Source: Bacteroidota bacterium (GTDB lineage Bacteria; Bacteroidota; Bacteroidia; UKL13-3). From it: a stretch of 64,000 bases of DNA. The stretch spans positions 1 through 64,000 of the forward strand of contig JAIXWI010000033.1 of the NCBI GenBank assembly GCA_027491355.1. The letters are read 5' to 3'. How positions within the stretch are numbered: position 1 is the stretch's first letter; each line of letters begins with the position of its first letter. The position numbers and the translations under genes were made by a program. The notes beneath the pieces were generated by a model. It was not told the origin of the DNA. It searched no databases and worked only from the letters and a program-made list of their open reading frames with translations. Below, in pieces: positions 37,327-39,888 of the stretch.

Positions 37327-37690
37327 GGGGCTGACCGGTATTGACGGGGTGAGCAGCGGCGTGTAAGCATGCAGTGCATTGGATGTATTGGCACTTTAAT
37401 CTCAATCTCAAAAACTTTAATTGGCGAGTCTAACTTCGCTATGGCTGCTTAATCAGGAAGATTAAGCCGGCCTTCGGTTCGATTGTATTTGTCTTGTTGT
37501 GCAATCACTAGAACCGTCATCAAACAAGGTCTTTAGCAGGTGGGAAACCGGCTTGTTAAAGTAAATTGGTTTCTTAGAACAGGGTTGGTAAGAGAAGCAG
37601 CCTGCACTGTTTGAAATCAATGCTTCACTAAGCATGTAGAAAGCTCGACCAATCCACCTCCGGACCAGGGTTCAACTCCCTGCAGCTCCA
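37327..37690 (+). ncRNA. ssrA: Transfer-messenger RNA (tmRNA)
   Basis: The 5' GGGGCTG pairs with the 3' CAGCTCC (37683-37689) as the acceptor stem, with A37690 as discriminator. The T arm CAGGG TTCAACT CCCTG precedes it. The tag frame runs from GGC at 37423 to TAA at 37450-37452 and encodes GESNFAMAA, ending in the Ala-Ala degron typical of ssrA tags. CCA is not encoded (CAG follows). The 364-nt length is normal. tmRNA with SmpB rescues stalled ribosomes. It lies 48 nt after the biotin carrier gene and is followed by a repeat array. Confidence 0.95.
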
Positions 37691-37709
37691 CAGATGACCA
37701 ATGTTGTGC

Positions 37710-37811
37710 GGACCAAGACTGTCACCGTTTATTTATGAAGCAAAAATCAAGCTCGCTTGGTTTTTTGCGTAGTAAATAAACGGCGCTGAGTCAGCAGCGC
37801 AGGCTTGGTCC
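37710..37811. repeat. Long imperfect palindrome preceding the repeat array
   Basis: GGACCAAG (37710-37717) pairs with CTTGGTCC (37804-37811). Inside, CCGTTTATTTA (37725-37735) pairs with TAAATAAACGG (37773-37783), and the stem continues imperfectly through GCAAAAA/TTTTTTGC and CAAGC/GCTTGG to a two-nt loop near 37753. A separate small hairpin GCGCTG/CAGCGC occupies 37783-37800. The right arm is the start of array unit 1. Confidence 0.8.
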
Positions 37812-38127
37812 ACTTCTTTAGCCAAGGGAATCATGGTGAAGCCATAAACCCTGCAGCATGTTTTCAATTATCAATTATTTTTTCAGTAACCAATTTCGCT
37901 AAAAAACAGCGCAGGCTTGGTCCACTTCTTTAGCCAAGGGAATCATGGTGAAGCCATAAACCCTGCAGCATGATAATGCAACAAGGGAATCATGAATAAG
38001 ATCCATAAACCCTGCAGCATGTTTTCAATCATCAATTATTTTTTCAGTAACCAAGTTCGCTAAAAAACAGCGCAGGCTTGGTCCACTTCTTTAGCCAAGG
38101 GGAATCATGAATGAAATTCATAACCCT
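37795..38127. repeat. Array of three structured direct repeats downstream of ssrA
   Basis: Three near-identical copies of a block that begins CAGCGCAGGCTTGGTCCACT start at 37795, 37907 and 38068. Copies one and two are identical for 66 nt. Each contains CTTGG ... CCAAG and AGGG ... CCCT dyads. An AT-rich spacer (37861-37906 and again 38022-38067, near-identical) separates them, giving periods of 112 and 161 nt; the longer one holds an extra partial copy at 37982-38021. No open frame runs through the array. The function is unknown: it could be a mobile repeat, a structured RNA or recombination sites. Confidence 0.85.
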
Positions 38128-38195
38128 TATTTTCAGTCTATTCATCCAATATGCTACCATCAACCTACATAGTTTCTTTCATCAAAGTAAAAATA

Positions 38196-39455
38196 CTACA
38201 ACACAAACGCCGCTTCCATTCTGTTTTGTTCCACTCTAGAAATTTTTACTTCTCCTGCAATTTTACGCCAATTGCTTACTGATAGCTGAACCCGATTAAT
38301 AATGGCTTTGGCTTCTTTTTCTTTTAATCTGAAATAATCAATTACAGACAAGGCCAAATCTAAATTCAAAGAGTTGTCATCTTCCGAAATATTTAAAGTA
38401 AGTCCAAGCCCTTCTGCAAATGGATTCACATCATACAATGGAGAAAGTTTCCAACCATTTCCAACTAAAAGGAATCCATGATTTCTTAAATGATCATCGG
38501 TATTCTTGAGGCAAATATTCAATACAATTCGAGTCCACAATTCTTTTAAATCTGCATCAACATTTGCGCCTTGTTGAATTAAAAATTCTGCTAATTCCAA
38601 ATAGCTGATGCCATTTTGAAAGTCTGCGCCATCATTATAGCCAAGTAAAGTCATGGCTGATGCAAAATGAATCCGGTCTCCATTTGCTGTCCTGTCAAAT
38701 CTTTTACTCAAATAAGTATGATGTTTACTTGAAAACTGTCGTATTTCAAAATCAGCAACACAAAGTCCTGCTTCTTTCGCAATTTGCATTGCAACATACT
38801 CCCATGCCCCAATGTCTCTATCATCATTGCCACTTGGAAATTTTGAAATCCATAAGCTACCCTGCGCATCTTTGATACTGGCTTTGGGTCTTGCGCCTCC
38901 TAATGATGCACCCGGAGCAATAAGCAGATTTAACCATTTTATTGCTTCCTCATCCGCTTCGTCATGATCCGCTTCTAATTGCAAACTTGCATATTCTAAA
39001 TCTCTCAGAGAGGCCCAAGGAGGTGTTGCCAAAACCTTGTCTGCACTTAAAAAATCAGCTTCAGGATTTAATTTAAAACGCAAAGCTCCCATACGGTGTT
39101 CATCATACACGCCTAGTAAAAAGTCAGATTCTAAAAGCACTTTGGGTTTTCGCCCTTCTTTTCTTGCCATAATTGCTTCTTTGCGCTTCATCAACAACCT
39201 ACCCCATCTGTCTGGTGAAGAATCTAAAAACACCCCAAAATTCGGCTTATCCTCTTGGTTAAATTGTTGTCCAGTATAGAACTGAAGGTTTGGATCAATT
39301 GATTGTGATTGTCCAGATAGAATCCAGTCTTGAGTATATTCAAATGAAAAAATCTCTTTCCCGCTCACTTGAACAGTTGTAAGTATGCCCATTTGAGTTG
39401 GCTCATTTAATCCAATCCAGTCTGCATAAACATTTATCTTCTTGCTCATGTTCAT
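38196..39455 (-). CDS. hipA: HipA-family serine/threonine kinase toxin
   Basis: A 419-aa two-part HipA: N-terminal subdomain (about 1-115, with FGVFLDSSPDRWGRLLMKR) and kinase domain (about 140-410). The ATP-pocket P-loop-like GASLGGARPKA, the catalytic loop NTDDHLRNHGF and the metal-binding LSPLYDVNPF are intact. HipA kinases phosphorylate aminoacyl-tRNA synthetases and induce growth arrest; the target of this group is not known. The start overlaps the hipB stop by 4 nt. It is read towards the repeat array. Confidence 0.9.
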   Translation of the reverse strand: MNMSKKINVYADWIGLNEPTQMGILTTVQVSGKEIFSFEYTQDWILSGQSQSIDPNLQFYTGQQFNQEDKPNFGVFLDSSPDRWGRLLMKRKEAIMARKEGRKPKVLLESDFLLGVYDEHRMGALRFKLNPEADFLSADKVLATPPWASLRDLEYASLQLEADHDEADEEAIKWLNLLIAPGASLGGARPKASIKDAQGSLWISKFPSGNDDRDIGAWEYVAMQIAKEAGLCVADFEIRQFSSKHHTYLSKRFDRTANGDRIHFASAMTLLGYNDGADFQNGISYLELAEFLIQQGANVDADLKELWTRIVLNICLKNTDDHLRNHGFLLVGNGWKLSPLYDVNPFAEGLGLTLNISEDDNSLNLDLALSVIDYFRLKEKEAKAIINRVQLSVSNWRKIAGEVKISRVEQNRMEAAFVL

Positions 39456-39838
39456 TCAATGTTTTCAGAAAATGGAGATTCATCACTCATCTCCTTGATA
39501 TTACTATTCTTTTTTTGGCTATGGTTCGCTTTCTTTTTAGGCGCTCTTGATTTTGTAACCAATCCAATATCTTGAAGCTTCCTTCCTAATTCATCATTTC
39601 CAGCCAATTTTAAAAAGTCATTTTCGAGCCCCAAAACAAATAACACCTGAAAATATGCACCCATGGCAACAGAAGGAGCTCCCTTCTCAATTTGCCACAA
39701 AGTGCCCCTACTAAGCCCAGCCCTTTCGGCAACTTGTTCACTCGACAACTTCCTCCTTAAACGAGCCAACTTTATATTTTCTCCTAATGCTTTTAAGAGC
39801 TTTTTACCTTTAGGCAATATGACTACGCTATCTTTCAT
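39452..39838 (-). CDS. hipB: HipB-like Xre-family antitoxin
   Basis: A 128-aa protein with an Xre helix-turn-helix (about 12-72: GENIKLARLRRKLSSEQVAERAGLSRGTLWQIEKG) and a basic then acidic C-terminal tail of about 40 residues, longer than in many HipB proteins. It should neutralise HipA and repress the operon. ATG at 39838 is chosen over an upstream in-frame ATG at 39859, because the -7 box at 39857-39864 puts transcription start near 39850. Confidence 0.86.
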   Translation of the reverse strand: MKDSVVILPKGKKLLKALGENIKLARLRRKLSSEQVAERAGLSRGTLWQIEKGAPSVAMGAYFQVLFVLGLENDFLKLAGNDELGRKLQDIGLVTKSRAPKKKANHSQKKNSNIKEMSDESPFSENIE

Positions 39839-39841
39839 AAT

Positions 39842-39888
39842 GTTCAATATAATAAACAAATATATACAATAAGTTTAAATTATTAAAC
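39842..39888 (-). promoter_or_regulatory. hipBA promoter flanked by two candidate HipB operators
   Basis: The minus strand carries TATATTTG (39864-39857), an exact Bacteroidota -7 box. Two similar 16-nt near-palindromes flank it: GTTCAATATAATAAAC (39842-39857) and GTTTAAATTATTAAAC (39873-39888). Their starts are 31 nt apart, close to three helical turns. The distal site covers the -33 position. This suits cooperative autorepression by HipB. Confidence 0.55.

Follow-up and report, generated by a model that had tools for sequence, protein, structure and literature searches.

The question raised by this locus is what kind of sequence lies directly behind the ssrA gene of a Bacteroidota bacterium (assembly GCA_027491355.1), where a structured repeat array separates the tmRNA gene from a hipBA-like gene pair. 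The window referred to throughout is the whole stretch of DNA that was analysed, the first 64,000 nt of contig JAIXWI010000033.1. The 3' ends of tRNA and tmRNA genes are among the main entry doors of mobile DNA into bacterial chromosomes. The initial annotation of the array, made from the letters alone, could not place it in any repeat class and offered three options, namely a mobile palindromic element, a multi-hairpin RNA or a set of recombination sites.

The repeat array behind ssrA

The tmRNA gene (ssrA, the host gene of the element; 37327-37693, plus strand, 3' end ...CAGGGTTCAACTCCCTGCAGCTCCAC) was identified with ARAGORN and matches Rfam RF00023 at 115.5 bits, and HipA_C and HTH genes were confirmed at 38196-39859 on the minus strand, so that the array does lie between the two as had been claimed. 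It extends over 37795-38133 (about 330 nt) and its members are given on the plus strand. The copies at 37795-37860 and 37907-37972 are identical at 66/66 nt, the second being a truncated copy that consists of a right arm, a T-arm-like hairpin and the motif CCCTGCAGC, and AT-rich spacer 1 (37861-37906) lies between them. A partial, hairpin-only copy with the apex ATGAATAAGATCCAT follows at 37985-38021, then AT-rich spacer 2 (38022-38067) and a last copy (38068 to about 38127-38133; apex ATGAATGAAATTCAT), which is decayed and without the 3'-end motif: over 38068-38133 its first 33 nt are identical and the remainder has diverged, giving 61% over 66 nt. Repetition takes in the AT-rich spacer, with 98% identity over 99 nt between 37842-37940 and 38003-38101, and an exact repeat of 66 nt together with this one makes chance impossible. 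The original description of a repeated block whose first 66 nt are shared by copies one and two, with near-identical AT-rich spacers and an extra partial copy, was thus accurate, the third copy following the others for 33 nt.

Splitting all copies yields a simple grammar with a block A, CAGCGCAGG[C/A]TTGGTCCACTTCTTT, and a hairpin H, AGCCAAGGGAATCAT..ATAAACCCTGCAGC[A/T]TG, in which a 7-nt linker precedes an extra H and a spacer of ~46 nt precedes the next A. The hairpin apices vary in paired fashion (ATGG-TGAAG-CCAT and ATGAAT-GAA-ATTCAT). No ORF lying wholly within the unit or the array is longer than 44 aa, those present are all meaningless and there is no integrase gene, in agreement with the earlier statement that no coding frame is contained. 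The verdict that this is not CRISPR is likewise borne out, since the spacers are nearly identical (98% over the 99-nt stretch) and the repeats are of variable make-up. Integron attC arrays are similar in being imperfect palindromes with spacers, but here the spacers are near-identical and non-coding, no integron integrase is known and the array starts at a tDNA.

The complete palindromic unit

The array is the repeated right-hand part of a palindromic unit that begins directly behind the tmRNA gene. The start point first given, 37795, holds for the array, but the structure itself begins ~100 nt earlier, directly after the tmRNA. The complete unit (37694-37860, plus strand, ~165 nt) runs from the end of the tmRNA gene to a partial copy of the tmRNA 3' end. 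The left arm of its outer inverted repeat, GGACCAAGACTG (37710-37721, plus strand), pairs with the right arm CAGGCTTGGTCC (37800-37811, plus strand), which is also found within the start of every array copy; the first block A is therefore the right arm of a larger palindrome starting after the tmRNA. Between the arms are a long AT-rich palindrome of 59 nt (37725-37783, no strand assigned; arms 37725-37746 and 37762-37783, 86% complementary, plus a T-run), with the inner hairpin CAAGCTCGCTTG at its centre (37748-37759), and a small GC hairpin, GCGCTGAGTCAGCAGCGC (37783-37800, no strand assigned). Beyond the right arm is a T-arm-like hairpin, GGGAATCATGGTGAAGCCATAAACCC (GGGAATCATG..CATAAACCC; 37826-37851, plus strand), the class form of which is GGGATCA..TAATCCC, and at the end of hairpin H, 155 nt downstream of the tmRNA end, stands CCCTGCAGC (37849-37857, plus strand), which is 9 nt of the tmRNA 3' end (37678-37686) and is repeated at 37961 and 38010.

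Taken by itself the similarity of the block to its own tmRNA end is weak, with p about 0.16 in the window and 0.018 in the congener G001. A direct likeness to the window's own tmRNA end, not being significant, was set aside as an argument, and the link rests on the congeners G001 and G003, whose units share position and anatomy with 37694-37860 and have a corresponding match to the tmRNA 3' end of 10-11 nt, and on a wider family. The parts of that family are a location directly behind a tRNA or tmRNA gene, an outer inverted repeat, an AT palindrome with CAAGC..GCTTG, a T-arm-like hairpin and a gene-end copy. The window unit shows every one of them, the T-arm-like hairpin and the gene-end copy in diverged form, and was assigned to the family by its anatomy and its same-genome neighbours, not by a covariance model. 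The 12-mer CAAGCTCGCTTG also occurs in a unit of G056, a genome of another family. The initial annotation had not recognized the array as the tail of a larger ssrA-attached unit, with nine bases of the tmRNA end and with like anatomy behind other tRNA genes here and across the class. The nested dyads it reported are real for the full unit, which folds as RNA far better than shuffles (z -5.0) and has a self-complementarity z of 7-8, but not for the isolated 66-nt block, which was rejected as a folded RNA (z -0.4, not significant).

The folding of the full unit brings in the alternative that it is a cis-acting RNA module, that is a structured tail at the 3' end of some tRNA and tmRNA transcripts (a terminator, processing element or decoy with a T-arm-like hairpin), inherited vertically and duplicated locally. 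We consider this unlikely, although it is the main rival because the units share the sense of the tRNA and their mismatches are strand-biased (see below). The units always stand directly behind the tDNA in the same sense, a constant orientation that would be seen with a cis-acting RNA too. Against an RNA module, the array block by itself shows no unusual degree of structure, the array lies beyond a terminator-like sequence, and the Rfam 15 covariance models, run at a relaxed threshold on the array and the tRNA-linked units, matched no family.

The ssrA locus in related genomes

The array sequence occurs at a single locus, behind ssrA, in its own 2.44-Mb genome and was found in two of 58 relatives, the genomes compared being mostly draft assemblies. 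These two are the congeners G001 and G003, in both of which it lies directly after ssrA and is longer; in a public collection it is present in CANHRW010000193 and CAISCU010000018/55, Bacteroidetes MAGs that are the same two congeners. Their contigs break within it, which is what a real and longer repeat should cause, and recurrence in two independently assembled congeners speaks against an assembly artefact, which the initial annotation had named as one possible refutation. It had named a block unique to this locus, without transcript or homologues, as another, and whilst the block is unique within the genome, homologues exist at the level of the family. Presence here and otherwise in two congeners only would suit a tandem duplication confined to the ssrA locus and belonging to no wider family, but like anatomy behind other tRNA genes of this genome and across the class leaves that reading scarcely credible, and the class-wide search disfavours it.

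Behind the ssrA of a further congener, G002, there is no unit. In G012 and G029 the final 17-19 nt of the tmRNA recur exactly at +147/+148 behind ssrA, and shorter copies are found in G006 and G008; in all four the copy comes after a palindromic unit of similar length. Two tandem units lie behind ssrA in G029, with a decayed copy after the second. An ssrA-anchored pattern matched in 5 of 64 genomes of the order (control 0) and also in G056, again with two tandem units. In G020 one full and three truncated units are found 35 kb from ssrA with apparent island sequence between.

Duplications of 17-19 nt whose sequence is that of the target itself could also arise if a Cas1-like or other integrase duplicated the tRNA 3' end as a target-site duplication, in the manner of casposons. 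Casposons carry many genes, including one for a Cas1-like integrase, and have terminal inverted repeats, and some of their families do insert in tRNA genes with target duplication (PMC6614799). The present units resemble casposons in tRNA genes in the duplication at the tRNA 3' end, but they have no genes and their borders are without terminal inverted repeats. In G008, moreover, there is a one-base difference between the two copies, of which the distal one equals the island-type ssrA end of G020; a 3' end carried by the element is the better fit to this, and we rate transposition of this kind as very improbable. Target-specific copies as such are compatible with either a target-site duplication or an element-borne att sequence.

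Several other observations were made behind ssrA. The ~35 kb between ssrA and the displaced palindromic units of G020 (G020:C9:20500-58000; L131, L132, L108) are a probable island, whose left end has a terminator-like sequence common to G075, G008 and G023. A serine-type recombinase was suspected there by eye. G075 and G020 were considered as clean empty ssrA sites and then downgraded, the sequence behind ssrA seeming to be the end of an inserted island. In genus g14 (L031, L043-L045; G074, G025, G073, G032) a gene that by eye is tyrosine-recombinase-like starts directly behind ssrA. Unrelated-looking repeat arrays (CTTCGCCCTCCGAAGC.. and CACCGAAGCCTTGGCGTAGGTGA..) are found directly behind ssrA in other genera, at L046 (G013) and L052 (G061).

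Units behind other tRNA genes

Within the genome that contains the window, like anatomy is found behind tRNA-Ser genes (C17, C1, C2) and behind tRNA-Phe (C19), and in a scan for outer inverted repeats ssrA, the three tRNA-Ser and tRNA-Phe were the five best of 32 tDNA flanks. In that scan ssrA (p 0.04) and tRNA-Phe (p 0.065) are individually weak, but both are clear by self-complementarity, a measure that is high as well for a tRNA-Met close to a contig end. The tRNA-Phe gene is followed by 98-nt repeats and two of the tRNA-Ser genes by AGCTTCCGAAGGAAGC hairpins; since three tRNA loci of this genome run into hairpin arrays of their own, the array in the window has counterparts built on the same logic.

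In G020 the flank of a unit behind a tRNA gene is 17 nt from that very gene (AATCCGATATCCTCCAC) and not from ssrA, and the same type of unit is found at a tRNA gene and beside the ssrA island. The tRNA gene occupied in G020 is identical at 80/80 or 78/78 positions, yet without this unit, in G029, G076 and G012. The family of G056 has units behind tmRNA, tRNA-Arg, tRNA-Val and tRNA-Cys, those at tmRNA and tRNA-Arg in G056 being 82% alike, and G279 has an exact gene-end copy of 17-19 nt at tRNA-Arg. Tandem and decaying units are present in G029, G056, G020 and the congeners as well as at the tRNA-Phe and tRNA-Ser loci of this genome.

Shorter units were seen at a tRNA-Ala-like locus (L199, L200, L204; G029, G076, G080), where they contain a partial 3' half of the tRNA in which the palindrome TCCCGATTAATCGGGA, or a variant of it, stands in place of the T-loop. 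In G076 there are two tandem copies.

Distribution across the class

Matches to a class pattern (GGTTCGA-N140-170-GGGATCA-N6-36-TAMTCCC) numbered 49, in 42 of 395 genomes and 37 of 196 genera, and the reversed-pattern control had none. Being exact, the pattern gives minimum counts, and it misses the diverged ssrA unit of the window (GGGAATCAT..ATAAACCC). As the pattern was designed from known units, the conservation of GGGATCA/TAATCCC is by construction; terminators, AT arms and the AAGCTTGCTT hairpin recur though they lie outside it. In a phylum sample outside the class 0 of 111 genomes matched. Of 30 loci examined, 27 begin in a tRNA or tmRNA gene (22 Ser, 2 Arg, 1 His and 2 tmRNA), and every one of these 27 units is palindromic (z 4.6-16.4). 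An exact copy of the unit's own host gene 3' end, with a mean length of 15 nt, follows in nine (permutation mean 1.0, maximum 5 in 5000), the other 18 being without a clear gene-end copy.

The class-wide material also has points in favour of the RNA module. Most units carry an intrinsic terminator, some hairpin pairs have changed on both sides (24 genomes) and the palindrome mismatches are strand-biased, with 165 purine-purine against 32 pyrimidine-pyrimidine; G-T mismatches outnumber A-C by 44 to 29, a difference too weak to decide between RNA and DNA. Alignment of 24 units with MAFFT and RNAalifold did not recover the outer helices because the sequences turn over completely. A transcript tail would, however, need neither target-specific gene-end copies nor presence and absence at one and the same tRNA gene, and the distribution is patchy, taking in a minority of the genome's own tDNAs and 42/395 genomes by pattern and leaving out the ssrA of G002.

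Viral contigs gave no match in an exact repeat scan and 12 matches to the class pattern, one of which has the right anatomy, the others appearing chance-like. That one, IMGVR_UViG_3300025298_000065 (L251 4800-7236), has a tRNA-Ser 3' fragment and then a palindromic unit adjoining a 587-aa ORF, and probably represents the distal end of an island that sits in a tRNA-Ser gene. To the eye the ORF resembled a recombinase, but with no match in Pfam or PDB and none of significance in PHROGs this identification was dropped.

A displaced tRNA-Ser 3' end with a unit on a viral contig is what might be seen if the units were attachment-site scars, the ends left by ordinary tRNA- or tmRNA-integrating islands after deletion of the interior. 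The 3' ends of ssrA and tRNA-Ser do look like island targets, and island-like sequence or recombinase-like genes occur behind ssrA in several relatives. Deletion scars would not be expected to keep one anatomy and length across families, as these units do with 126-151 nt before the T-arm-like hairpin, and in G020 an island has displaced whole units as units, all of which makes such an origin improbable.

Interpretation and relation to known elements

The intact gene, the target-specific end copy, the gene-distal decay of tandem arrays and the presence or absence of a unit at the same gene together argue for insertion at tDNA 3' ends. The reading that we favour, with some reserve, is that the array is the tandem, decaying right end of a gene-less palindromic element of 150-170 nt which inserts at tRNA and tmRNA 3' ends and is moved by site-specific recombination. 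Of the options first put forward a mobile palindromic element is thus the best supported, with RNA still the main rival. Such an element would consist, in order, of the outer inverted repeat (usually with an intrinsic terminator), the long AT-rich palindrome, the small hairpin, the T-arm-like hairpin and a copy of the final ~17 nt of the host gene. Since an insertion would keep the 3' end of the gene intact and would usually add a terminator, it would be nearly neutral. Recombination would take place at the tDNA 3' end, through a recombinase presumably supplied in trans; no recombinase could be tied to the units, and the genome's four tyrosine recombinases all lie outside the window. Insertion or amplification beside the gene, together with recombination between repeats, may then build up arrays in which, as in the window, the members far from the gene are shortened and no longer have the gene-end copy. 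The lack of terminal inverted repeats at the duplication borders counts against this reading, as does a gene-end copy of just 9 nt in the window.

A bolder proposal, of which we are more doubtful than confident, is that the units form a class-wide family of gene-less palindromes that jump among tRNA-Ser, other tRNA and tmRNA genes, gain the 3' end of the gene entered as a flank and form CRISPR-like gene-proximal arrays, which would make them a minimal mobile element, possibly with its own recombination mechanism. The element would be an apparently undescribed, small kind of tRNA-targeting mobile element, no description of such a thing having been found in the open-access full-text literature.

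Islands that integrate in tRNA and tmRNA genes have an intact gene on one side and a 3'-end fragment on the other, are known in tandem arrays and favour ssrA (PMC4383910). The units are like them in standing at tDNA 3' ends with a 3' fragment of their own gene at the far end (in 9/27 class units, and as the 9 nt CCCTGCAGC in the window), but have no integrase or other genes and measure about 160 nt as against kilobases. The Islander method applies filters for an integrase gene and for length (PMC4383910), so that units of the present kind are removed, and integrase-based island finders in general exclude them by design. With MITEs and other cis-mobilizable elements the units share being short, non-coding and presumably dependent on an enzyme in trans. 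They differ in that the inverted repeats begin after the gene and stop ~40 nt before the right-hand copy (partly by inspection), so that there are none at the borders, and in having a tDNA 3' end as target; no parent transposon with matching ends was seen among the loci examined. REPs measure 20-40 bp and reach a high copy number within a single genome (PMC3733652). The units resemble REP and BIME sequences as extragenic palindromes and hairpin arrays, but are about 160 nt long, few per genome, bound to tDNAs and different in sequence at each locus.

If this reading is correct, some 160 nt without a gene would be retargeting between tRNA genes whilst leaving each gene intact, which would show how little DNA suffices. 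Such units may be part of the reason why assemblies break at ssrA and tRNA loci, and would offer a small natural substrate for tests of recombination at tDNAs.

The neighbouring hipBA-like genes

The hipBA-like pair was also considered as cargo of the array and rejected: it is missing between the array and the pit genes in G003, but has no bounding att-like copy here. The pair (HipA_C and HTH, 38196-39859, minus strand) sits between the array and PhoU-like/PHO4 phosphate transporter genes. In G003 the array abuts the transporter genes, and the pair was therefore either gained here or lost in G003.
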